From assembly GCA_017795045.1 (NCBI GenBank), contig CP051244.1:2068446-2132445 (forward strand): a stretch of 64,000 nucleotides of DNA, in the 5' to 3' direction. How positions within the stretch are numbered: the first letter of the stretch is position 1; every line of letters starts with the position of its first letter. Below, piece after piece: positions 11,534 to 33,634 of the stretch. The notes beneath the pieces are model-generated. The model did not search any database and was not told where the DNA came from. It was given only the letters and a program-made list of their open reading frames with translations. The position numbers were made by a program, and so were the translations under genes. This DNA is from Allomuricauda sp. Its GTDB lineage: Bacteria > Bacteroidota > Bacteroidia > Flavobacteriales > Flavobacteriaceae.

Positions 11534-11882
11534 AGCTCCAGTTTTAGGTAGCTACATGTATTTTGAAATTGGGTAAGCGTTACTAAATAGGTTAAAATTC
11601 TCCCAACTGGGGAATTTCTCCCCGAATCCTTCTGAACCCTACATTTTTTATTTTTCATATATGTTTGATTTTCAGTATTTTAATTTGATTTATCGTTTTT
11701 AGCTTTTTAAGGCATAGACTTTGCTCATTGGACTACCAAGCATTTCGAGGCCTGATTGTTCCAGCAATTTTGGATGATTTGAAGAAACAATTTCGATAAT
11801 ATCCAAATGGGAATCTGACGATGGCCAATGCTAAAAACTCCAAGTGAGTGAACAAATATGGGGTGGAACTTAAAATGGAAAT
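11534..11882. other. Intergenic region with a -7 box and a decayed frame
   Basis: This 349-bp gap holds a perfect -7 hexamer context (TATGTTTG, 11660-11667) without a matching -33 TTG. It also holds what looks like the eroded end of a coding sequence (11710-11889, listed separately). A short GGGGA/TCCCC stem near 11609-11623 lacks a T-run and is not a convincing terminator. Confidence 0.4.
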
Positions 11883-20353: not shown

Positions 20354-20396
20354 TGACAAACATCATGTATTTGTTAAACAACTTTTGCTTATTTTG
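20354..20396 (+). promoter_or_regulatory. FNR-like palindrome and -7 box upstream of cbpA
   Basis: TGAC-AAAC-ATCA (20354-20365) is an FNR/CRP-like palindrome. A -7-like box TTATTTTG (20389-20396; five of six conserved bases of TAnnTTTG) has its centre exactly 33 bp from the palindrome centre, the same spacing as upstream of universal stress genes further on. It is a candidate site for the REC-CRP regulator at 26831. Confidence 0.45.
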
Positions 20397-24828: not shown

Positions 24829-25236
24829 TCAAGACCTAAAAAGCAATTCAATTCGTCCCAGTACAATCAGTTCGGACTTATTACTGCCGGCAAAGGCCGA
24901 AGTTATGGCTCGGGCCGTTGACATGATGAGCTGTTTTATCCAGTCAGGGAACAGGATTTTGTGTTCAGTGTAGAATGCTTCGAACGCTTCATAGATTTCA
25001 TCACTATTCTTACCGTATTCCACCAACCAATCAAAAACGGTCTCAATCTGAAAAGCGGCGTCGGTACCATACTCATCCTCAATATCGTCCACTTCCAACC
25101 AATGGTCACGTACCACTTCCTTTAACCGATCCATCTCCTTTGCATGGATACTATGGTCCGCCATGGCCACGGCATAGAAAAGTCTTCCCAAGTTTTGGTA
25201 CAATTCATTTCCCAGTTTCTTTTTTGAATCCATCAT
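24829..25236 (-). CDS. TerB-like helical protein
   Basis: This ~135-residue all-helical cytosolic protein resembles the tellurite-resistance TerB domain, with a LGRLFYAVAMADHSIHAKE segment where TerB-type proteins carry acidic metal-binding helices. I chose the ATG at 25236, because a longer frame to 25284 would begin inside the promoter. Directly upstream on its strand is a box TATCTTTA (25267-25260) with an FNR-like palindrome 33 bp further on. That ties it to the stress regulon of this region. Its biochemical role is unknown. Confidence 0.6.
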   Translation of the reverse strand: MMDSKKKLGNELYQNLGRLFYAVAMADHSIHAKEMDRLKEVVRDHWLEVDDIEDEYGTDAAFQIETVFDWLVEYGKNSDEIYEAFEAFYTEHKILFPDWIKQLIMSTARAITSAFAGSNKSELIVLGRIELLFRS

Positions 25237-25259: not shown

Positions 25260-25302
25260 TAAAGATAAACAAGGATGGGGCCATCGCTTATGATGTAAAT
25301 CA
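25260..25302 (-). promoter_or_regulatory. FNR-like palindrome and -7 box for the TerB-like gene
   Basis: TGAT-GTAA-ATCA (25291-25302) lies 33 bp, centre to centre, from TATCTTTA read on the minus strand (25267-25260). The geometry equals that at the universal stress genes. The same palindrome lies only 22 bp before the GTG of the kinase on the plus strand, so a bound regulator could activate the TerB-like gene and block the kinase promoter. Confidence 0.55.
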
Positions 25303-25323
25303 GTTATTTGCTAACTTTAGTGA

Positions 25324-26853
25324 GTGAAGCTGTTCGAGAAAAACAATGTGTTCAGGATCCTAACGGAAGTCATTTCGGAAGGGATTCTCATCGTTAATGA
25401 TCAACAGATCATTGTGGCCAGTAATGTAGTGGCCAACCGTATGTTTGGTTATCAAAAAGGGGAGCTTAGCGGCATGCCCTTGGAAGCTTTGCTTCCCCAA
25501 AGTGTGAGGGAGCAGCATAAGATGGATGCTGGGGTGTTTCTTCAAAAAGGCCGCCAAAGAAGTATGGGGCAAGGTCTGGATCTTGTGGGGCTTCTGAAAG
25601 ATGGTAGTGAATTTCCCATTGAAATTGGACTTAACCCATTTACATTGTTGCAGAAGAAATACGTAATGGCCATTATTGTGGACATTTCGGAACGAAAAAG
25701 AACCGAACAGACCATAGATCACTGGTTTCAGATATTTAACGAGTCGCTCAATGAAATCTATATTTTTGATGTGGAGACCTTTGTGTTCATCAATGTAAAC
25801 CGGGGTGCCCAGCTTAATTTGGGATATACCATGGAAGAATTGAACCAGATGTCCGTTCTTGATATCAAGACCGACCTTTCCGAGAAAAGTTTAAAAAGAT
25901 TGATAGCTCCATTGGTCAACAAGAAACGGGAAAAGGTCGATTTTGAGACCATCCATAGAAGAAAGGACGGTTCCGTATATCCCGTAGAGGTGCATTTGCA
26001 ACTGTCATCCATTGGTAAGAAGGAAGTGTGCTTGGCCATTGTGTTGGACATTACCGAGCGAAAAAACTATACCCAACATCTGGAAAATAAGGTTGAGGAG
26101 CGTACCCTTCAGCTTAGGGAGGCCTTGAAGGCGGAGAAGCAGTTGAATGAGTTGAAGACAAAATTCCTTTCCTTGGTCTCGCATGAATTCAAGACGCCAT
26201 TGACCAGTATATTGACCTCTGCTTCCTTGCTTTCAAAATATACGGAGACCGAGCAACAGGAAAAACGGGATAAACATATCAACACCATTAGGGAAAAGGT
26301 GAAGTATTTGGATAATATCCTTACTGATTTTCTCTCCATAGAACGTTTGGACACGGGGAAAGTCAAGTATAACATTACCTTTTTTCCCTTGAGCAAGCTC
26401 ATCAATGAAGTGGTCTATAACTCCAATACACTTTTAAAGGAAGGACAGCGGATTCAATACCCCAAGGATATTGATGGCATTAACGTATTTTTTGATGAAA
26501 AGATTTTAGCATTGGCCCTGTCCAATTTATTGCATAATGCCATTAAATATTCCCACGAAGGTACCCAGATAGAACTTCGGGTCAAGGAACAGGAAGAGAA
26601 CCTCCTAATAGAGGTCATGGACGGGGGACTGGGAATTCCAGATGAGGACCAACCCTTTATTTTTGAACGGTATTTTAGGGCCAGTAATGTGTTGACGAGC
26701 CAGGGTACCGGGATAGGACTGAACATTGTAAAACAGCATATGTTCAACCTTGGGGCTGAAATCGGTTTTACAAGTAGCTTGGGCCAGGGCTCAACATTTA
26801 CATTGACCATACCACTTAAGAACTACGAGAATGAAGAAGATTCTGTTGGTTGA
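25324..26853 (+). CDS. Cytosolic PAS-PAS sensor histidine kinase
   Basis: This 509-residue kinase has two PAS domains (~8-120 and ~132-245), a coiled coil and a HisKA domain with His287 in SHEFKTPLTS. The ATPase domain has the N box NLLHNAIKYS, the G1-like DGGLGIP and the G2 box GTGIGLNIVK. There is no membrane segment, so it senses an internal cue, perhaps redox or energy state through PAS. The GTG start at 25324 is forced by a TGA just upstream. It overlaps the regulator gene by 23 bp, so the two form a cognate pair. Confidence 0.9.
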   Translation: MKLFEKNNVFRILTEVISEGILIVNDQQIIVASNVVANRMFGYQKGELSGMPLEALLPQSVREQHKMDAGVFLQKGRQRSMGQGLDLVGLLKDGSEFPIEIGLNPFTLLQKKYVMAIIVDISERKRTEQTIDHWFQIFNESLNEIYIFDVETFVFINVNRGAQLNLGYTMEELNQMSVLDIKTDLSEKSLKRLIAPLVNKKREKVDFETIHRRKDGSVYPVEVHLQLSSIGKKEVCLAIVLDITERKNYTQHLENKVEERTLQLREALKAEKQLNELKTKFLSLVSHEFKTPLTSILTSASLLSKYTETEQQEKRDKHINTIREKVKYLDNILTDFLSIERLDTGKVKYNITFFPLSKLINEVVYNSNTLLKEGQRIQYPKDIDGINVFFDEKILALALSNLLHNAIKYSHEGTQIELRVKEQEENLLIEVMDGGLGIPDEDQPFIFERYFRASNVLTSQGTGIGLNIVKQHMFNLGAEIGFTSSLGQGSTFTLTIPLKNYENEEDSVG

Positions 26854-27877
26854 GGATGACCCCTCATTACGGGAAAATATAGAAGAGCTTTTAGATCTAT
26901 CGGGATTTCAGGTGTACTCAACCCCAGATGGCAGAATGGCTATTGAAATTGCCAAAAGGGAAACCCCTAATATTGTATTGTGCGACATCATGATGCCCCA
27001 AGTGGACGGATATGAGGTGCTGGAGCAGTTTTCATCCTGTGAGAAGACCAAACACATCCCCTTTATTTTTGTTTCGGCCAAAACCGAGCGCCATGAGGTA
27101 AGAAAGGGAATGGAACTTGGTGCGGATGACTACTTGACCAAGCCTTTTGAGGAAGAGGAGCTTTTGAATGCCATACATTCCCGTTTGGAAAAGTCCAAAC
27201 AACTGGAAAGTGTTTTTTTAAAACGGGGGGAGCATACCAAAGAGCACGACATTAGGTCGCTACACGAATTGAAGAATTTTTTTGATGACCATGGTCAATT
27301 GTTTTCCTTTAAAAAGGATGAGACGGTTTATGCCATGGGCGAACACTCCAACATGGTGTATCTTATTTTAAAAGGAGTGGTAAAGTGTTGTGGTTTGGAT
27401 GAGGAAGGAAAAGAGCTCATCACTTCTATATATTCGGAAGATGATTTTTTGGGATTTACTTCCTTGACGGAAAACTATCCCTATCGCGAATATGCCATAG
27501 CCATGGAGAATCTGGAACTGGCCGGAATTTCCAAAACCCAGGTAAAGGCCATACTCGAAGAAAACCAGAACGTTTCTTTGGAGCTCATCAATATTATGGC
27601 TGAAGATTTGGTGCAGATCAAAAAGCAATTGTTGCAGATGGCGTATAGCTCGGTACGAAAAAAAACGGCCCAAACCCTGCTTCTGTATTCCCAAGCGATG
27701 AACAAAGGAAAGGATACCCCTTTAAAAATTGCCCGGAGCGACTTGGCAGGTGTTGCGGGAATTGCTACGGAAAGTCTGATCAGAACCTTATCCGATTTTA
27801 AGGACGAAGGACTTATCGCTATAGAAAACCGAGATATAAGGGTCTTGGACAAAGAGGCCTTAAAACATGTCCACTAG
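26831..27877 (+). CDS. Response regulator with CRP/FNR-type output (REC-cNMP-HTH fusion)
   Basis: This 348-residue transcription factor has an N-terminal receiver domain with phospho-acceptor Asp52 (CDIMMPQ), acidic pocket EDD and Lys in TKPF. Residues ~145-260 form a CRP-like sensor barrel and ~270-345 a CRP/FNR winged helix. The recognition helix region ATESLIRTL keeps the Glu and Arg used by FNR and CRP to read TTGA/TGTGA half-sites. No cysteine cluster for an iron-sulphur centre is seen. Joining phosphorelay and CRP outputs in one chain is uncommon. It probably binds the TGAY-N4-ATCA palindromes mapped around the following genes. Confidence 0.85.
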   Translation: MKKILLVEDDPSLRENIEELLDLSGFQVYSTPDGRMAIEIAKRETPNIVLCDIMMPQVDGYEVLEQFSSCEKTKHIPFIFVSAKTERHEVRKGMELGADDYLTKPFEEEELLNAIHSRLEKSKQLESVFLKRGEHTKEHDIRSLHELKNFFDDHGQLFSFKKDETVYAMGEHSNMVYLILKGVVKCCGLDEEGKELITSIYSEDDFLGFTSLTENYPYREYAIAMENLELAGISKTQVKAILEENQNVSLELINIMAEDLVQIKKQLLQMAYSSVRKKTAQTLLLYSQAMNKGKDTPLKIARSDLAGVAGIATESLIRTLSDFKDEGLIAIENRDIRVLDKEALKHVH

Positions 27878-27884
27878 CCGAAAA

Positions 27885-27926
27885 TGACATATATCATTCC
27901 ATCTTTTTGGTGGAATGGCAAACTTG
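27885..27926 (+). promoter_or_regulatory. FNR-like palindrome upstream of the first universal stress gene
   Basis: TGAC-ATAT-ATCA (27885-27896) begins 7 bp after the stop of the REC-CRP gene. The best -7 candidate, CAAACTTG (27919-27926), is weak (four of six conserved bases), and its centre lies 32 bp from the palindrome rather than 33. Of the set this site has the poorest promoter match. Confidence 0.4.
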
Positions 27927-27945
27927 CAGTGTCATTGAGTGGATT

Positions 27946-28788
27946 ATGAAAAATATTTTAATCCCTACCGATTTTTCAGAGAATTCCAAGAACGCGCTTA
28001 GGTATGCCCAAGTAATGTTCAGTACCATGGAGTGTAGCTTTTATGTGCTCTATGTAGGGACATTGGTGGATTCGCAAACGGACACTTTTGGAGTTTCCCG
28101 TCCAACTGTGAAAGACTTTTCAATAGACAATGTAAAGCATATGCTGGCAGATTTTGTGGATGGGTGTAGAGGGAATGTTGGGGATGCCAACCATCACTTT
28201 TATACACTGCAAGACTATGGTTTTTTTATCCAGAGCATTAAAAAGAACCTGGAGGAACATCAAATCGATTTAATTGTGATGGGCACCAAAGGTGCTTCCG
28301 GATTAAAGGAAAGGGTTGTAGGGAGCAACGCAGGTGATGTGATTACCAAGGTACAGTGCAATACATTGGTGATTCCGGATGCGGTTGTGTTATCCAAACC
28401 CAAAGAAATTGCTTTTCCCACCGATTTCAATATTTTCTACACCCACGGAATTTTAAGCTCCATGGCAGAAATGTTGAATTTGTCCGCAAGCAAGCTCAGG
28501 ATCATGAATGTCATCAAAAAAGGGGAAACGCTTACTTTGGAACAAAAAACGAACAAGGAATACTTGTTTGATTATATGGAGGAGACCTTCCCTGACCGAT
28601 ACAGTTTCCATACCATTACCAACAAAAGTGTAAAAACTGCCATACAATCCTTTGTAGAGAACCAATCGGTCAATATGATAGTCATGGTGGCTAAGAACCT
28701 GAACTTCATTCAACAAATCCTGTTCGATTCCATAGTGGAAAAAATAAGCTTTCATACAGCGGTGCCCTTTTACGTTATCCACGAATAA
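27946..28788 (+). CDS. Two-domain universal stress protein (1 of 6)
   Basis: This ~280-residue cytosolic protein holds two Usp domains. The first (residues ~1-145) has the nucleotide-binding motif G-x2-G-x9-G(S/T) in GTKGASGLKERVVGSN; the second (~150-280) lacks it. The start at 27946 (MKNILIPTDFS) fits the strict family N-terminus; an upstream TTG frame is not needed. It follows the REC-CRP gene and has its own FNR-like site. Usp proteins of this type bind ATP or act in starvation and low-oxygen survival. Confidence 0.85.
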   Translation: MKNILIPTDFSENSKNALRYAQVMFSTMECSFYVLYVGTLVDSQTDTFGVSRPTVKDFSIDNVKHMLADFVDGCRGNVGDANHHFYTLQDYGFFIQSIKKNLEEHQIDLIVMGTKGASGLKERVVGSNAGDVITKVQCNTLVIPDAVVLSKPKEIAFPTDFNIFYTHGILSSMAEMLNLSASKLRIMNVIKKGETLTLEQKTNKEYLFDYMEETFPDRYSFHTITNKSVKTAIQSFVENQSVNMIVMVAKNLNFIQQILFDSIVEKISFHTAVPFYVIHE

Positions 28789-28810
28789 GGTTTTATCCAT
28801 ATACCGATAT

Positions 28811-28853
28811 TGACCAAAATCATATTCTACCTTTTTTCGCTGTCCTATCTTTG
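28811..28853 (+). promoter_or_regulatory. FNR-like palindrome and perfect -7 box, universal stress gene 2
   Basis: TGAC-CAAA-ATCA (28811-28822) is followed by a perfect -7 box TATCTTTG (28846-28853), centre to centre 33 bp. No TTG lies at the -33 position, which suggests dependence on an activator bound near -41. Confidence 0.6.
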
Positions 28854-28868
28854 GGAAAAGAGCTTACC

Positions 28869-29714
28869 ATGCGCACCATACTTATTCCTACCGATTTTTC
28901 CAAGAATGCCCTACATGCACTGCAGTATGCCCAGGAACTGTATAAATGTGAGCGTAGCTGCTTTTTTATCCTTCATGCCTATATGGATGAGGTGTATGGG
29001 GAATACAAGGCCGCTTCTCCTGAAGACTTGGAAGCACGGAAACAGATAAAGAAAGAAGAGTCTGAAAAGCAGTTGGACCATTTGGTAGGGGCCGTTTTAG
29101 GAAACCCGCCCAACCCGTTGCATAATTTTGAGACTGTTGCCGTTTTTGACAGTCTTGTGGATGGCATCAATGATTTTGTGAACGAGATGAACATAGACAT
29201 GGTCATCATGGGGACCAAAGGGGAGACCAGTGACCACAAGACCACCTTTGGCAGCTATACCATAGAAGTGTTCAAATATTTAAAATGCCCTGTATTGGCC
29301 GTTCCGGAAGGTTTTGAATACAGACAACCCAAGGTAATTCTTTTCCCAACGGACTATATGCTGCCCTATAAACGCAGGGAGCTCAAACTTTTGGGGAACC
29401 TGGCCCGTAAGTTCAAATCTGAGGTGCATTGTCTTTACTTCACGGATTTTGAAGAACTCAGCATGAGACAAATGGACAACAAGAAATTTCTGGAAGGTTC
29501 CCTTTCCGGTACGTATTTGTCCTTTGGGACCACCTCGGTCAAAAATAAGGCCGAAGGTATCATGGAGTACGTAGAGAAGAATGAGGTTGGGATGCTGGTC
29601 ATGGTAAACTCAAGACATTCCTTTTTTGAGGACATGCTCTATCGTTCCACAGTGGACCTGCTTGGACTAAAAGTGGGGATTCCATTTTTGGTGATGCAGA
29701 ATCTCAATAGATGA
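28869..29714 (+). CDS. Two-domain universal stress protein (2 of 6)
   Basis: This 281-residue Usp has the ATP-binding motif in domain 1 (GTKGETSDHKTTFGSY) and none in domain 2. I use the ATG at 28869 (MRTILIPTDFS); the longer frame from TTG 28851 would start inside the -7 box. Its stop overlaps the start of the next Usp gene (ATGA), so genes 2, 3 and probably 4 form one operon driven by the site at 28811. Confidence 0.85.
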   Translation: MRTILIPTDFSKNALHALQYAQELYKCERSCFFILHAYMDEVYGEYKAASPEDLEARKQIKKEESEKQLDHLVGAVLGNPPNPLHNFETVAVFDSLVDGINDFVNEMNIDMVIMGTKGETSDHKTTFGSYTIEVFKYLKCPVLAVPEGFEYRQPKVILFPTDYMLPYKRRELKLLGNLARKFKSEVHCLYFTDFEELSMRQMDNKKFLEGSLSGTYLSFGTTSVKNKAEGIMEYVEKNEVGMLVMVNSRHSFFEDMLYRSTVDLLGLKVGIPFLVMQNLNR

Positions 29715-30586
29715 ACATTTTAAAAAAGAAGGCGATGAAAAACGTACTCTTGCTTACCGATTTTTCCAAGGATGCTTGGAACGCCATTTTTATGGCGGTT
29801 AAGCTCTACGCAGACATGGAATGCAAATTCTATGTGTTGCATACCTATGAGCCCAAACAAGAAAATATCACTGGGTTTAAAAGCAGTACTAGGGCGGGAG
29901 TGGTCTACCAATCCCTATCGGAAGCATCTGTGGGCCAGCTTGGGGAGGTAATGGAATACTTGGAAGAAAGCCACAAGAACCCCAAACATAGTTTTGAAAA
30001 GCTGTCCATAGCCGGAGGACTGGTGGAAACCATCAAGGACCTTTTACCTCGCTATGACCTTGACACTATTTTTATGGGAACCAAAGGTTCCACAGGGGCC
30101 AAGGAAATTTTTATGGGCAGCAATGCGGTAAAGGTCATAAAGCACATAAAGAACTGTGCTATTGTAGTGGTTCCGGAATCGTATGATTTCCAAAGGTTGG
30201 GATCATTGGTCTTTCCAACCGAATATGCCCACTTTTTTCCAAAGAATGTACTGAAGCCTTTGTTGAAATTGATCAAACTATGGAACTCCGAGGTCAAGAT
30301 TTTCCACGTGGCACAGACATTCAGTCTGTTGGATATCCAGAAGGCCAACAAGGAAATCCTGAAAAAACGGTTTGAAGGGCATACCACCTCATTTCATAGG
30401 GTCATTATCAAGACCACGGTGGCCGAGGCCATACGGCAATTTGCTGAAGAGGAAAAGGCCGACCTCATTGTACTCACCAACTATTCCCATGATTTTTTTG
30501 ATGGATTGACGCAGGAACCCGTGGTAAAAAAAGTAACTTTTAGAACCGAAATCCCACTGATGGTGCTTCCAGATTTTGAAGGATAG
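29711..30586 (+). CDS. Two-domain universal stress protein (3 of 6)
   Basis: This 291-residue Usp carries an 8-residue N-terminal extension (MNILKKKA) before the family start MKNVLLLTDFS at 29735, and either codon could be used. The 4-bp overlap with gene 2 favours 29711 by translational coupling. Domain 1 has GTKGSTGAKEIFMGSN. Domain 2 keeps the fold but not the nucleotide motif. Confidence 0.85.
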   Translation: MNILKKKAMKNVLLLTDFSKDAWNAIFMAVKLYADMECKFYVLHTYEPKQENITGFKSSTRAGVVYQSLSEASVGQLGEVMEYLEESHKNPKHSFEKLSIAGGLVETIKDLLPRYDLDTIFMGTKGSTGAKEIFMGSNAVKVIKHIKNCAIVVVPESYDFQRLGSLVFPTEYAHFFPKNVLKPLLKLIKLWNSEVKIFHVAQTFSLLDIQKANKEILKKRFEGHTTSFHRVIIKTTVAEAIRQFAEEEKADLIVLTNYSHDFFDGLTQEPVVKKVTFRTEIPLMVLPDFEG

Positions 30587-30604
30587 CATAGAAATACAAC
30601 GAAT

Positions 30605-31459
30605 ATGATACGGATAGTACTACCCACTGACTTTTCCATGAATGCTTGGAATGCCATTATTTATGCATTTTCCATCTTTAAGGATGTGGAGTGTGAGTTT
30701 GTCATCCTGAATGCTTACCAAGTTGGTGCGTCCGGTTTGTCCACCAAAATGGGAGGCGCCAATGATACCCGCCTGTTCCGGTTGATGAAAGAACAATCGG
30801 AGCGCGAACTCCAGGAAGTTTTGGAGAAGGTAGTTGAGATCGATACTGATCCAAAGCATCATTTTAAGACTTTATCCGTTGCGGACCATTTGATCAATGC
30901 GGTCGGTAAGACCGTATACAATAAGGAGATAGACTATATTATTATGGGGACCAAGGGGGCTACCGGACTCAAAGAGGTATTCATGGGGAGCAATACCTAT
31001 AAAATCATCAATGAGATTGATTTTTGCCCTGTAATAGCCGTTCCCGAGGAGTACAACGTCAAGGATTCCATTGGGGATATTCTCTTGGCTACGGGATATG
31101 AACATGTTTTTGAGACCTACGAACTCCATCCACTTTTAAAGCTCGCCCAACTTTATAATTCAGAAATATGGGTGACGTATGCTGGAAATCCGGATGGGCT
31201 CACTCCCCCACAAATTGAATCGAAAGACACTTTGGAAAAACATCTGTTGGGCACAAGGCACAAGTTCCTTGAAGTGGAAAAGGGAAGTTCCATACAAAGT
31301 GCCATTCAAAAAACGGTGGAAGAAAATAAAGGAGTGGATATGGTGGCCATGATCAATTATGCACATGGTTTTTTTGAAAAACTTACCCATGAAGCCGTAA
31401 TCAAAAAAGTCTCCTTTAATACCCAAGTACCCTTTTTGGTCGTGCACTTATTTGAGTAA
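30605..31459 (+). CDS. Two-domain universal stress protein (4 of 6)
   Basis: This 284-residue Usp begins MIRIVLPTDFS and has the ATP motif GTKGATGLKEVFMGSN in domain 1. Domain 2 is degenerate, as in its neighbours. It lies 18 bp after gene 3 without its own palindrome, so it is probably the last gene of that operon. It converges on the thioredoxin gene. Confidence 0.85.
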   Translation: MIRIVLPTDFSMNAWNAIIYAFSIFKDVECEFVILNAYQVGASGLSTKMGGANDTRLFRLMKEQSERELQEVLEKVVEIDTDPKHHFKTLSVADHLINAVGKTVYNKEIDYIIMGTKGATGLKEVFMGSNTYKIINEIDFCPVIAVPEEYNVKDSIGDILLATGYEHVFETYELHPLLKLAQLYNSEIWVTYAGNPDGLTPPQIESKDTLEKHLLGTRHKFLEVEKGSSIQSAIQKTVEENKGVDMVAMINYAHGFFEKLTHEAVIKKVSFNTQVPFLVVHLFE

Positions 31460-31466
31460 AATCAGT

Positions 31467-31766
31467 TTACAGATAAGACTTCACCACTTGGACAATCTCT
31501 GATTTTTGAAGTACACCGGATTGCCGCCACAATTGTTGACCTTTTTTGAAAAGCAGCATGGTAGGTACGCCCCTTACTTGGTATTTGCTGGCCAAGGGCT
31601 GATTTTTGTCCACATCAATTTTTACGATTTTCACTGAATCCCCCAATTCGGCCTTGACATCCTTAAGAATGGGGGCCAACATTTTACATGGACCACACCA
31701 CTCCGCAGAAAAATCGATAAGTACCAATTGATCGGAGTCTATCAAAGCGTTAAAATTTCCTTTCAT
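31467..31766 (-). CDS. trxA: Thioredoxin
   Basis: This 99-residue cytosolic thioredoxin has the active site WCGPC (Cys24, Cys27), the buried Asp in VLIDFSAEW and the cis-Pro in RGVPTMLLF. It reduces protein disulphides with thioredoxin reductase. It stands alone on the minus strand inside the array of stress genes. The FNR-like site at 31819 lies in the shared upstream region, and a weak box (TAAATTGC, minus strand, 31795-31788) sits at the same 33-bp distance, so joint control is possible but not shown. Confidence 0.95.
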   Translation of the reverse strand: MKGNFNALIDSDQLVLIDFSAEWCGPCKMLAPILKDVKAELGDSVKIVKIDVDKNQPLASKYQVRGVPTMLLFKKGQQLWRQSGVLQKSEIVQVVKSYL

Positions 31767-31818
31767 GGATGCACTGATTTATAAGATGCAATTTATGAAA
31801 TCCGATTTTTTTGGGAAT

Positions 31819-31861
31819 TGATGGATATCATGGTTTAAGATGGTAAAAGCATGTAGGTTTG
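31819..31861 (+). promoter_or_regulatory. FNR-like palindrome and perfect -7 box, universal stress gene 5
   Basis: TGAT-GGAT-ATCA (31819-31830) is followed by a perfect -7 box TAGGTTTG (31854-31861) at the standard 33-bp centre distance. No -33 TTG is present. The start codon follows 16 bp after the box. Confidence 0.6.
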
Positions 31862-31877
31862 ATTAAATTGGAAGGAT

Positions 31878-32723
31878 ATGATGCGGATAGTATTGCCCAC
31901 GGATTTTTCAGGGAACGCGTTCAATGCCATTGCCTATGCGGCAAGGTTATTGGAAGACACCACCTGTGTCTTTTATCTACTGCATGCCTATACACCGCCC
32001 ATTTACCGTGTGGACTATACGTTGGGCAGTCCAGGTGAACTTGGACTTCCCGATGACTATAAATACAGTGCGGAGGCCGAATTGGAGAAAACCAGAAAAC
32101 GAATCAAGGCAGAGTTTGATATCCCAAAGCACGAATATGTGGTACATGCCGCCTTTAACACCTTGGAAGATGAAATCAATACCGTGGTCAATAATGAAAA
32201 TATAGATTTGGTGATCATGGGCACCCAAGGAGCAACGGGAGCCAAGGAAATCTTGTTTGGTTCGCATACGGTACATGTTGTCAATAAGGCCATCGTTCCG
32301 GTTATGGCCATTCCATCCAATTTGAAAAGTATTCCACTTCGGAATATATTGTTCCCCACCGATTATGAAATCGACTTCTCAAAAAGGGATTTGGAGTGTT
32401 TGTTGGAATTGTCAAAACCAGGGGAATCCATAGTGCATATCATGCATGTTTCAACCCCAGAAGGACTCACACCCCAGCAAAAGAAGAACAAATCCAAGCT
32501 TGAAAAACTGATGCAGGGCCAGCCCTGTCAGTTTCATGACCTCCCCGATCAAGAATTGGTGGAAGCCATCAACGCATTTCAGCAAGAGGTGCCTGTAGAT
32601 TTATTGGTGATGGTGAAAAATAAACACTCGTTTTTGGAGCGCCTTTTTGTGGAACCTGTGATCAGGAATATTGGGTTGCATTGCAAAGTGCCTTTTTTGG
32701 TGTTGCCCCATACGGCAAATTGA
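31878..32723 (+). CDS. Two-domain universal stress protein (5 of 6)
   Basis: This 281-residue Usp begins MMRIVLPTDFS, and the start may be either of two adjacent ATG codons (31878 or 31881). Domain 1 has GTQGATGAKEILFGSH; domain 2 lacks the motif. It has its own promoter with an FNR-like site. Its TGA stop codon forms the first three bases of the palindrome serving the next gene. Confidence 0.85.
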   Translation: MMRIVLPTDFSGNAFNAIAYAARLLEDTTCVFYLLHAYTPPIYRVDYTLGSPGELGLPDDYKYSAEAELEKTRKRIKAEFDIPKHEYVVHAAFNTLEDEINTVVNNENIDLVIMGTQGATGAKEILFGSHTVHVVNKAIVPVMAIPSNLKSIPLRNILFPTDYEIDFSKRDLECLLELSKPGESIVHIMHVSTPEGLTPQQKKNKSKLEKLMQGQPCQFHDLPDQELVEAINAFQQEVPVDLLVMVKNKHSFLERLFVEPVIRNIGLHCKVPFLVLPHTAN

Positions 32724-32763
32724 CCTAAATCATGGCACAGGACAACAGTCCCATGTAATTTTA
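32721..32763 (+). promoter_or_regulatory. FNR-like palindrome and -7 box, universal stress gene 6
   Basis: TGAC-CTAA-ATCA (32721-32732) overlaps the stop codon of gene 5. The box TAATTTTA (32756-32763; five of six conserved bases) has its centre exactly 33 bp further on. Confidence 0.55.
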
Positions 32764-32782: not shown

Positions 32783-33634
32783 ATGGACAAAAGAGTCTTG
32801 TTGCCTACCGATTATTCAAAAAATGCATTGAACGCCATTAGATATGCGTTGGACCTGTATAAAAATGTACAGTGCGATTTTTATATCCTGAATGCCTTTC
32901 AGGCTTCGGGTTATACCTTGGATAGTATGATGGTTCCCGAACCCGGTGAACGTCTGTATGATATGGCCAAGGAAGCATCGGAAGCAGGAATGGAACGGCT
33001 TATGGGGATGGTTAAGCTTCATCCTGAAAACCCAAAACATCGGTTCCATACCATTTCTACCTTCAACAGTTTGGTGGAAGCTATCAAGAATGAGATAGCG
33101 AAGAAAGATATCGATGTAGTCGTTATGGGGACCAAAGGCCTTACCGAATCCAAGGCACGCATTTTTGGCACCAACACGGTATCTGTTATGGAAAGCGTAA
33201 AAAAATGCCCCGTTATAGCCGTACCCAGCGATTATATGTACGTTCCGCCCAAAGAGATCGCTTTCCCAACGGATTACAAAACAGACTTTAAAAAATCTGA
33301 AATGACCCAATTGGTTGAAATTGCAAAACTGCACGGATCAAAAATAAATGTGATCCATATTGATAAGGACAAGGATGGAAAGTTGAGCAAGCAAGAGGAA
33401 ACCCATAAGCAATTGTTACAGGATATCTTGGAAGGAACCGATTATGAGCTGCATTTTTTGTCTGCCGTAAAAGTAAGCAAGGGCATCAACCTTTTTATTG
33501 AGAGTACAAATTGTGATATGATCGCCTTTATGAACAGAAAACATCTGTTTTTTGGAAGCATCTTGTCCAATCCCTTGGTCAAGGAAATAGGGTATGATCC
33601 CAAGATACCCATTTTGGAACTGAATGATAATTGA
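32783..33634 (+). CDS. Two-domain universal stress protein (6 of 6)
   Basis: This 283-residue Usp begins MDKRVLLPTDYS. Domain 1 has GTKGLTESKARIFGTN, with Thr in place of Ser after the last glycine, which the motif allows. Domain 2 again lacks it. The stretch HIDKDKDGKLSKQEE in domain 2 looks like an EF-hand loop by composition but sits in a Usp surface region; I do not claim calcium binding. It is followed by a small coiled-coil gene. Confidence 0.85.
   Translation: MDKRVLLPTDYSKNALNAIRYALDLYKNVQCDFYILNAFQASGYTLDSMMVPEPGERLYDMAKEASEAGMERLMGMVKLHPENPKHRFHTISTFNSLVEAIKNEIAKKDIDVVVMGTKGLTESKARIFGTNTVSVMESVKKCPVIAVPSDYMYVPPKEIAFPTDYKTDFKKSEMTQLVEIAKLHGSKINVIHIDKDKDGKLSKQEETHKQLLQDILEGTDYELHFLSAVKVSKGINLFIESTNCDMIAFMNRKHLFFGSILSNPLVKEIGYDPKIPILELNDN

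Follow-up and report, generated by a model that had tools for sequence, protein, structure and literature searches.

Within a 64,000-nucleotide stretch of the Allomuricauda sp. genome (contig CP051244.1, positions 2,068,446 to 2,132,445 of the forward strand; hereafter the window), genes for universal stress proteins (Usp) are located next to genes for a histidine kinase and for a response regulator, REC-CRP, in which a receiver domain is fused to a CRP-type DNA-binding output. Short palindromes TGAY-N4-RTCA stand at a fixed distance upstream of -7-like promoter boxes in this region. With a probability of about 0.73, as judged from sequence comparison, REC-CRP activates these sites under the control of a kinase whose first PAS domain (PAS1) resembles heme oxygen sensors, an FNR-like protein encoded elsewhere in the genome shares the core box, and in this genus an inner base of the half-site separates the two sets of sites. 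REC-CRP is most likely the owner of the window sites and the best candidate regulator of the Usp genes.

The arrangement is defined by its spacing, denoted here N23: 23 nt between the palindrome and the -7-like box, equal to 33 bp from centre to centre. The original prediction had listed six palindromes in the window, with a -7-like box 33 bp away at five of them. All six palindromes were found. A strict TANNTTTR box lies at N23 from those at 25291 (minus strand), 28811, 31819 and 32721, and the one at 20354 joins them if one mismatch is allowed, while none is present at 27885. The features of the region are the following, with Usp labels lettered in gene order.

25291 to 25302, minus strand: box TGATTTACATCA (minus-strand reading), between the divergent gene at 24829-25236 and the kinase gene
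25260 to 25267, minus strand: -7-like box TATCTTTA, N23 from the 25291 box
24829 to 25236, minus strand: divergent gene for a protein of 135 amino acids (aa), start codon 23 nt after the -7 box
25324 to 26853, plus strand: histidine kinase with PAS (heme-sensor-like, His65), PAS, HisKA and HATPase domains, exact start uncertain
26831 to 27877, plus strand: REC-CRP response regulator with receiver, cNMP-binding-like domain and Crp helix-turn-helix (HTH)
27885 to 27896, plus strand: box TGACATATATCA before a Usp gene, no -7 box at N23 in the window
27949 to 28788, plus strand: universal stress protein, labelled UspD
28811 to 28822, plus strand: box TGACCAAAATCA
28846 to 28853, plus strand: -7-like box TATCTTTG, N23
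28869 to 29714, plus strand: universal stress protein UspE, start 15 nt after the -7 box
29711 to 30586, plus strand: Usp-like protein UspF, by similarity
30605 to 31459, plus strand: Usp-like protein UspG, by similarity
31819 to 31830, plus strand: box TGATGGATATCA
31854 to 31861, plus strand: -7-like box TAGGTTTG, N23
31878 to 32723, plus strand: universal stress protein UspH, start 16 nt after the -7 box
32721 to 32732, plus strand: box TGACCTAAATCA
32756 to 32763, plus strand: -7-like box TAATTTTA, N23
32783 to 33634, plus strand: Usp-like protein UspI, by similarity, start 19 nt after the -7 box
20354 to 20365, plus strand: box TGACAAACATCA before a DnaJ/CbpA-type gene, doubtful member
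20389 to 20396, plus strand: TTATTTTG, one mismatch to TANNTTTR, N23 from the 20354 box

Chance would give 4.7 occurrences of the pattern TGAYNNNNRTCA in the window; 13 were counted, a number that none of 100 shuffles reached. When the 3.76-Mb genome was scanned for TGAY-N4-RTCA followed by TAnnTTT[GA], any spacing between 9 and 39 nt being allowed, 14 of the 27 matches fell at N23 (P 2e-14 in a binomial test against uniform spacing); the reversed pattern, used as the control in the promoter scans, gave 5 matches in all. Three relatives of the same genus with complete listings have at least 13 of 35, at least 29 of 54 and at least 29 of 48 matches at N23, counted as one match per start. In 80 loci around REC-CRP orthologues, scanned for TGAN6TCA followed by TANNTTTR at spacings from 5 to 59 nt, 397 boxes lie at N23 as opposed to 0-18 at each other spacing, and the extended promoter pattern, scanned in 120 genera, yielded 1376 matches versus 27 for the reversed controls. 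The genome-wide comparison of the spacing with a control, proposed together with the original prediction, thus bears it out, also family-wide. A palindrome as short and degenerate as TGAYN4RTCA is expected 4.7 times in the window, and the whole arrangement could in principle consist of such chance matches, but this explanation is refuted by the spacing enrichment in the genome itself, in the 80 loci and across the genera, and its probability is negligible.

Of the 397 boxes, 391 are followed by T, while 200 are preceded by C and 126 by A, indicating an extended site (A/C)TGAY-N4-RTCAT. The Bacteroidota promoter consensus is TTTG / TAnnTTTG. At each spacer offset from 0 to 5, TTG is present in 2 to 6 of the 397 N23 boxes, and in 36 at offset 6, which is merely 14 nt before the -7 box; the scarcity of TTG in the spacers indicates that a -33 element as this consensus defines it is absent, in agreement with its reported absence at the window sites. 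Start codons of the sites in the Allomuricauda genome lie 15-35 nt after the -7 box, except for ccoNO (232 nt), where a short gene may lie between. A fixed distance, about -41 from the predicted start, and the lack of a -33/-35 element are the features of class II CRP/FNR promoters. The activator position near -41 suggested earlier is therefore supported by the fixed N23 spacing, and the N23 boxes are predicted to be activator sites at which the bound protein would replace the -33 contact.

The position of the boxes relative to genes was tallied in the 80 loci, with homologues defined as reading frames assigned at E 1e-8, paralogues included, and the box required within 150 bp; of 375 strict boxes in this tally, 84 precede unassigned frames and 4 precede none. 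The N23 promoter is found upstream of 66 of 104 UspD, 25 of 37 UspE, 66 of 99 UspH and 27 of 55 UspI homologues. An own N23 box precedes only 2 of 45 UspF and none of 14 UspG homologues, and these two genes are probably carried in the UspE transcript. For the 135-aa gene, 65 of 81 homologues have an upstream N23 box and all 81 have some TGAYN4RTCA. Its promoter box is among the best conserved in the regulon; the protein itself has no NCBIfam match, and the longer reading frame has no Pfam match.

The regulon outlined by these sites is predicted to be a low-oxygen one, larger than the stress cluster of the window. The 14 N23 sites of the genome precede four window genes (three Usp genes and the 135-aa gene), seven genes of a second cluster (C1:496-532 kb) and three single genes. 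The second cluster comprises hemN, ccoNO, the gene of the FNR-like protein, two Usp-like genes, an HPF-like gene and a gene for a CBS-domain protein; the single genes are a thioredoxin-like gene, a gene for a c-type cytochrome heading a nosZ operon, and an OmpW-like gene. NosZ, HemN and CcoNO score above the cut-offs of curated models, whereas the HPF, OmpW, thioredoxin, CBS and FNR models match below theirs. The set of stress genes proposed originally thus stands for the Usp sites, but it is part of a wider regulon that appears centred on the cbb3 oxidase, hemN and the nosZ operon. In the 80-locus tally, HPF-like genes carry an N23 box in 13 of 17 cases, hemN in 1 of 25, thioredoxin homologues in 0 of 39, and ccoNO in 0 of 14, since its box lies further off than 150 bp.

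The nos-type operon (L031:1986-5069, C1:2,059,985-2,063,068) encodes a c-type cytochrome, a product of a middle reading frame and Sec-dependent NosZ, with its N23 box 5.3 kb before the start of the window; N2O reduction at low oxygen is predicted for it. In the genome G054 (locus L194), N23 boxes on the minus strand at 11673 and 7128 precede reading frames that resemble, by eye, pyruvate formate-lyase and pyruvate phosphate dikinase, which suggests a fermentative branch of the regulon.

The membership of the cbpA site in the set, assumed previously, is doubtful. A box is present in 22 of 42 cbpA homologues but a strict N23 promoter in none of the 42, and cbpA was rejected as a firm member of the regulon. 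The N23 octamers of its relatives are degenerate and the pattern looks shifted by one base (one row, L071, comes from a mislocated gene); in the window, TTTG lies 15 nt before its -7-like box.

Three CRP-family HTH proteins of the genome score over the cut-off: REC-CRP, the FNR-like protein, and one encoded at 763496 with an unrelated helix. REC-CRP belongs to the CRP/FNR superfamily, as evidenced by its PF00027 (1.3e-14) and PF13545 (9.7e-13) domains, both over cut-off. The original prediction had described its recognition Glu and Arg as kept; these residues, E314 and R318, correspond to E209 and R213 of FNR and do not vary in any of 110 sequences. The receiver has the residues of a response regulator: D9, D10, D52 and K104 are present in 110 of 110 sequences, and S82 in 109, with Thr in 1 of 110.

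The FNR-like regulator (P0002, C1:522709-523395) is encoded beside the cbb3 genes. Its score against the curated Fnr model NF008365, 114.6 bits with a cut-off of 228, is the reason for the label "FNR-like." Cysteines 5, 8, 54 and 107, which may be ligands of a [4Fe-4S] cluster, are invariant in 31 of 31 sequences, in a spacing that differs from that of Escherichia coli FNR, and Ile occupies the position of Ser212. The recognition helix ATES-x-IR is common to both regulators, and its Glu, Ile and Arg are present without exception in the 110 REC-CRP and the 31 FNR-like sequences. The half-site of FNR proper is TTGAT. Of the seven boxes in the cluster of the FNR-like gene, six end with RTCAT, and in the one that precedes the FNR-like gene the final T is replaced by G, so that none is of the TTGAT-N4-ATCAA type; FNR-only genomes likewise carry RTCAT boxes, although the scan pattern itself fixed that T. 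The description of the boxes as FNR-like needs the amendment that the promoter-proximal half-site is ATGAY and not TTGAT. The assignment of the regulon to REC-CRP is retained in the form of best candidate at the Usp sites, while the box alone has no power to identify REC-CRP, its core being shared by the FNR-like protein.

The occurrence of the boxes broadly follows that of the two regulators. REC-CRP was scored when full length. For the FNR-like protein the threshold was E below 1e-40, and weaker matches, seen in five genomes, were treated as absence. The median number of boxes per genome is 20 where both regulators are present (n=27), 12 where REC-CRP is alone (27), 8 where the FNR-like protein is alone (44), and 0 in the 22 genomes lacking both, 16 of which contain no box at all; each regulator class exceeds the last one at P about 1e-8, a value that ignores kinship and genome size. 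In sampled stretches of two REC-CRP-only genomes, G121 and G047, the genes found behind N23 boxes are ccoNO, hemN, Usp and HPF-like genes; in those of two FNR-only genomes, G127 and G079, they are ccoNO and hemN, and in G079 also a Usp-like gene. The sole other CRP-family match of G121 has the unrelated helix TSRVVISR. Apparently, either regulator can serve the core promoter, and in the two REC-CRP-only genomes looked at REC-CRP seems to serve both gene sets.

The two sets of sites differ in their inner bases in the genus of the window. Boxes having neither A at position 5 nor T at position 8 (the "neither" class) make up 101 of 121 boxes in 31 REC-CRP loci of the genus, whereas not one of the 32 boxes in four FNR/cbb3 clusters belongs to it. 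Base 5 of the half-site is A in 23 of 242 cases in the REC-CRP loci versus 53 of 64 in the FNR clusters, with equal G+C contents of 0.41 and 0.42. These differences bear on the possibility that the FNR-like protein activates the window sites, with REC-CRP having other targets or a modulating role. The near-identical recognition helix and the same core box and spacing in FNR-only genomes would fit such an assignment, but it is made quite improbable by the inner bases of the genus boxes and by the genome G009, which has the FNR-like protein and no REC-CRP: 0 of 9 boxes in its FNR/cbb3 cluster, and 1 of 13 among the genome-wide N23 matches listed (classed by eye), are of the "neither" class. REC-CRP is thus favoured as the activator of the window sites.

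The dialect is strong in Allomuricauda/Flagellimonas (the 101 of 121 boxes given above) and in Croceivirga-like loci (13 of 18). A division of all Usp from all cbb3 boxes by C/G versus A/T was dropped as a family-wide rule, being absent in Aquimarina (2/126), Maribacter (0/6) and Dokdonia (0/19), and a first comparison of inner bases in two REC-CRP-only and five FNR-only genomes was too small and has been superseded.

The dialect tends to follow residues 307 and 313 of the REC-CRP HTH, with exceptions, as far as the sequences indicate. In the 80 loci, 105 of 125 boxes are of the "neither" class where residue 307 is Gly, versus 6 of 217 where it is Ser. Among 17 REC-CRP neighbourhoods from 14 genomes, partly chosen after the boxes had been seen, the class accounts for 25 of 42 boxes with Gly307 or non-Thr313 versus 2 of 33 without these changes. 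In this sample, the regions of G130, G091, G069, G139 and G123 were the ones picked after inspection; the remaining genomes had been included because they carry both regulators, their box listings having been partly viewed beforehand, and the sample overlaps the earlier counts in the two regions of G005 (genus comparison) and the 1.5-kb surroundings of four others. The association is seen in several lineages and also between two REC-CRPs of one genome (G031, G130). Five genomes of the same genus (G005, G001, G002, G007, G011) have a second REC-CRP, 36-52% identical to that of the window; within 10 kb of the G005 paralogue (C1:442031), 4 of 6 boxes are of the "neither" type. An explanation of base 5 by the contact of CRP Arg180 was abandoned; this residue contacts the outer half-site.

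Second REC-CRP copies are also present in genomes without the FNR-like protein. Those with altered residues are accompanied by "neither" boxes in 4 of 5 (G083), 3 of 6 (G076), 0 of 6 (G128) and 0 of 1 (G074) cases; the second copy of G042, which is not altered, has no box. A link of altered helices to the presence of the FNR-like protein (4/12 vs 0/18, P 0.018) was rejected: that table considered only the best-scoring REC-CRP in 30 of the 54 REC-CRP genomes, with the Allomuricauda genome added by hand, and second copies are altered in 4 of 5 REC-CRP-only genomes. These four genomes also hold an unaltered REC-CRP, so that a reader of the A dialect is present there as in holders of the FNR-like protein, which fits insulation of paralogues from each other and does not prove it.

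The kinase gene is located directly upstream of the REC-CRP gene in 109 of 109 loci. In a profile search of PDB with PAS1, FixL (1.6e-18) and DosP (2.7e-18) came first, the best 14 of 19 matches were all heme PAS domains, and the next, a LOV domain, appeared at 3e-7. An AlphaFold2 model (mean predicted local distance difference test score 83) gave the same picture with Foldseek: ranks 1-24 are heme PAS domains (FixL, DosP and another), with FixL at rank 1, and LOV follows from rank 25. His65 of the kinase aligns with the His that ligates heme in FixL and DosP. It is invariant in 50 of 50 full-length kinases, that of the window and 49 from the 109 loci (the rest being cut or failing length and distance filters), and lies inside a variable stretch. 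PAS1 thus has the fold and proximal His of a FixL-type sensor and is most likely of the heme oxygen-sensor type; heme binding and a response to oxygen are predicted from this resemblance.

The position of the FixL distal Arg is taken by Leu85 in the window kinase (Leu in 24 and Arg in 18 of the 50 sequences), which departs from FixL and counts against the proposed oxygen sensing. Heme PAS folds can sense nitric oxide, carbon monoxide or redox state, and PAS1 might respond to one of these, or bind no heme at all. This is unlikely, though it is the alternative that carries the most weight here: an invariant His65 within a variable stretch, best sequence and fold matches that are all heme PAS domains, and a low-oxygen gene set all argue for the oxygen-sensing kinase.

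Several other observations weigh against the proposed explanation as a whole. Family-wide, the "neither" class accounts for 92 of 386 boxes where REC-CRP is the only one of the two regulators and for 34 of 373 where only the FNR-like protein is present (24% vs 9%; per-genome P 0.008), a modest difference, and boxes with both A5 and T8 do not differ (131/386 vs 153/373, per-genome P 0.18). The residue code has exceptions at Asn307 (5 of 24 "neither") and His307 (6 of 9), the clearest being the second REC-CRP of G128 (C1:971665-972717, L256), which has Gly307 and six neighbouring boxes all of the A/T kind. Of the two CRP proteins of G047 other than REC-CRP, one is of the TSRVVISR type and one has VETVIR, keeping Glu, Ile and Arg; because of the latter, the boxes of G047 are not necessarily all those of REC-CRP, and G121 is the cleaner case. 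The genome G046 has an FNR-like gene and 0 strict boxes. Conversely, G068, an 82% complete draft, has 26 strict boxes and neither regulator was found in it, its three CRP-family HTH proteins all having unrelated helices; either the draft is incomplete in this respect or a third regulator exists. REC-CRP homologues occur in 14 of the 20 listed genomes of the same class outside the order, where the strict N23 promoter is rare (0-9 per genome); in such genomes, e.g., G237 and G263, box or spacing may differ. Finally, autoregulation of the kinase/REC-CRP operon through an N23 box was rejected, such a box being found before 0 of 78 kinase and 0 of 80 REC-CRP genes; the plus-strand -7-like TAACTTTA at 25312 lies at a spacing of N9, which is not class II.

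The modest family-wide difference, the G128 exception and the boxes at both gene sets in REC-CRP-only genomes would also be expected if REC-CRP and FNR bound all boxes interchangeably, with the dialect a by-product of local ancestry or composition. This seems rather improbable given the equal G+C contents and an inner-base A of 10% in the REC-CRP loci versus roughly 30% expected, and given the tendency of the dialect to track the HTH residues across lineages and within G031 and G130.

The preferred explanation, activation by REC-CRP, would operate as follows. With falling oxygen the adjacent kinase would autophosphorylate and phosphorylate D52 of the REC-CRP receiver. The activated dimer, centred 33 bp upstream of the -7 box, at about -40, would take over the -33 contact and switch on the divergent 135-aa gene and the Usp genes. 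The FNR-like regulator, with its four invariant cysteines, would act through this core box at low-oxygen genes, cbb3 and hemN among them, and in the genus of the window the inner half-site base (A for FNR; C, T or G for REC-CRP) would keep the sets apart. In a broader and tentative view, which we hold at somewhat below even odds, Flavobacteria have repeatedly insulated CRP-family oxygen regulators that use one class II architecture, namely an FNR-like sensor and, controlled by a heme kinase, a fused one-step "FixJ-FixK" (REC-CRP). Substitutions of the REC-CRP residues 307 and 313 would shift the inner-base preference away from the A liked by FNR and unaltered REC-CRPs, and co-resident paralogues would skip each other's boxes, forming a natural specificity code.

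These results predict a low-oxygen regulon for a large and mostly uncharacterised family: 1376 promoters are predicted across 120 genera, and the exact rule that they obey can be used for annotation. They also point to paralogous regulators that form a natural series, alike in fold and core box but changed in inner base and helix residues, in which the avoidance of cross-talk after duplication or fusion can be followed. No title or abstract on Bacteroidota REC-CRP or on this box was found in the literature covered, which leaves out most subscription papers and is weak evidence of novelty.

Among known systems, the heme PAS domains of DosP and FixL (PDB 1d06, 9cdr, 8js5) share the fold and the proximal His with PAS1 of the window kinase; unlike them, this kinase has REC-CRP as its partner, and it has Leu in place of the distal Arg. 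The class II promoters of FNR/ANR in Proteobacteria likewise have a box near -41 before a -7/-10 element and include usp, hemN and cbb3 genes among their targets, while the promoter here is of the Bacteroidota type with the -7 element TAnnTTTG.

The closest parallel in regulatory logic is the FixL-FixJ-FixK/FnrN network of Alphaproteobacteria. According to Tsoy et al. (2016; PMC4999443), the sites recognised there by FnrN and by FixK are very similar, and which of the two proteins is present depends on the taxon. Both systems combine a two-component branch headed by a heme kinase, a putative one in the flavobacteria, with an FNR branch, and both have the cco oxidase and heme genes as targets. 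By the same account, a separate DNA-binding FixJ activates the fixK gene there, whereas here the receiver is fused to the CRP-type output, with one tier fewer. The half-site is ATGAY here as opposed to TTGA in the sites described there, the promoter class differs, and the inner base separates the branches in some genera. By analogy, the flavobacterial system appears to work like the FixL-FixJ-FixK/FnrN network without being a member of it.

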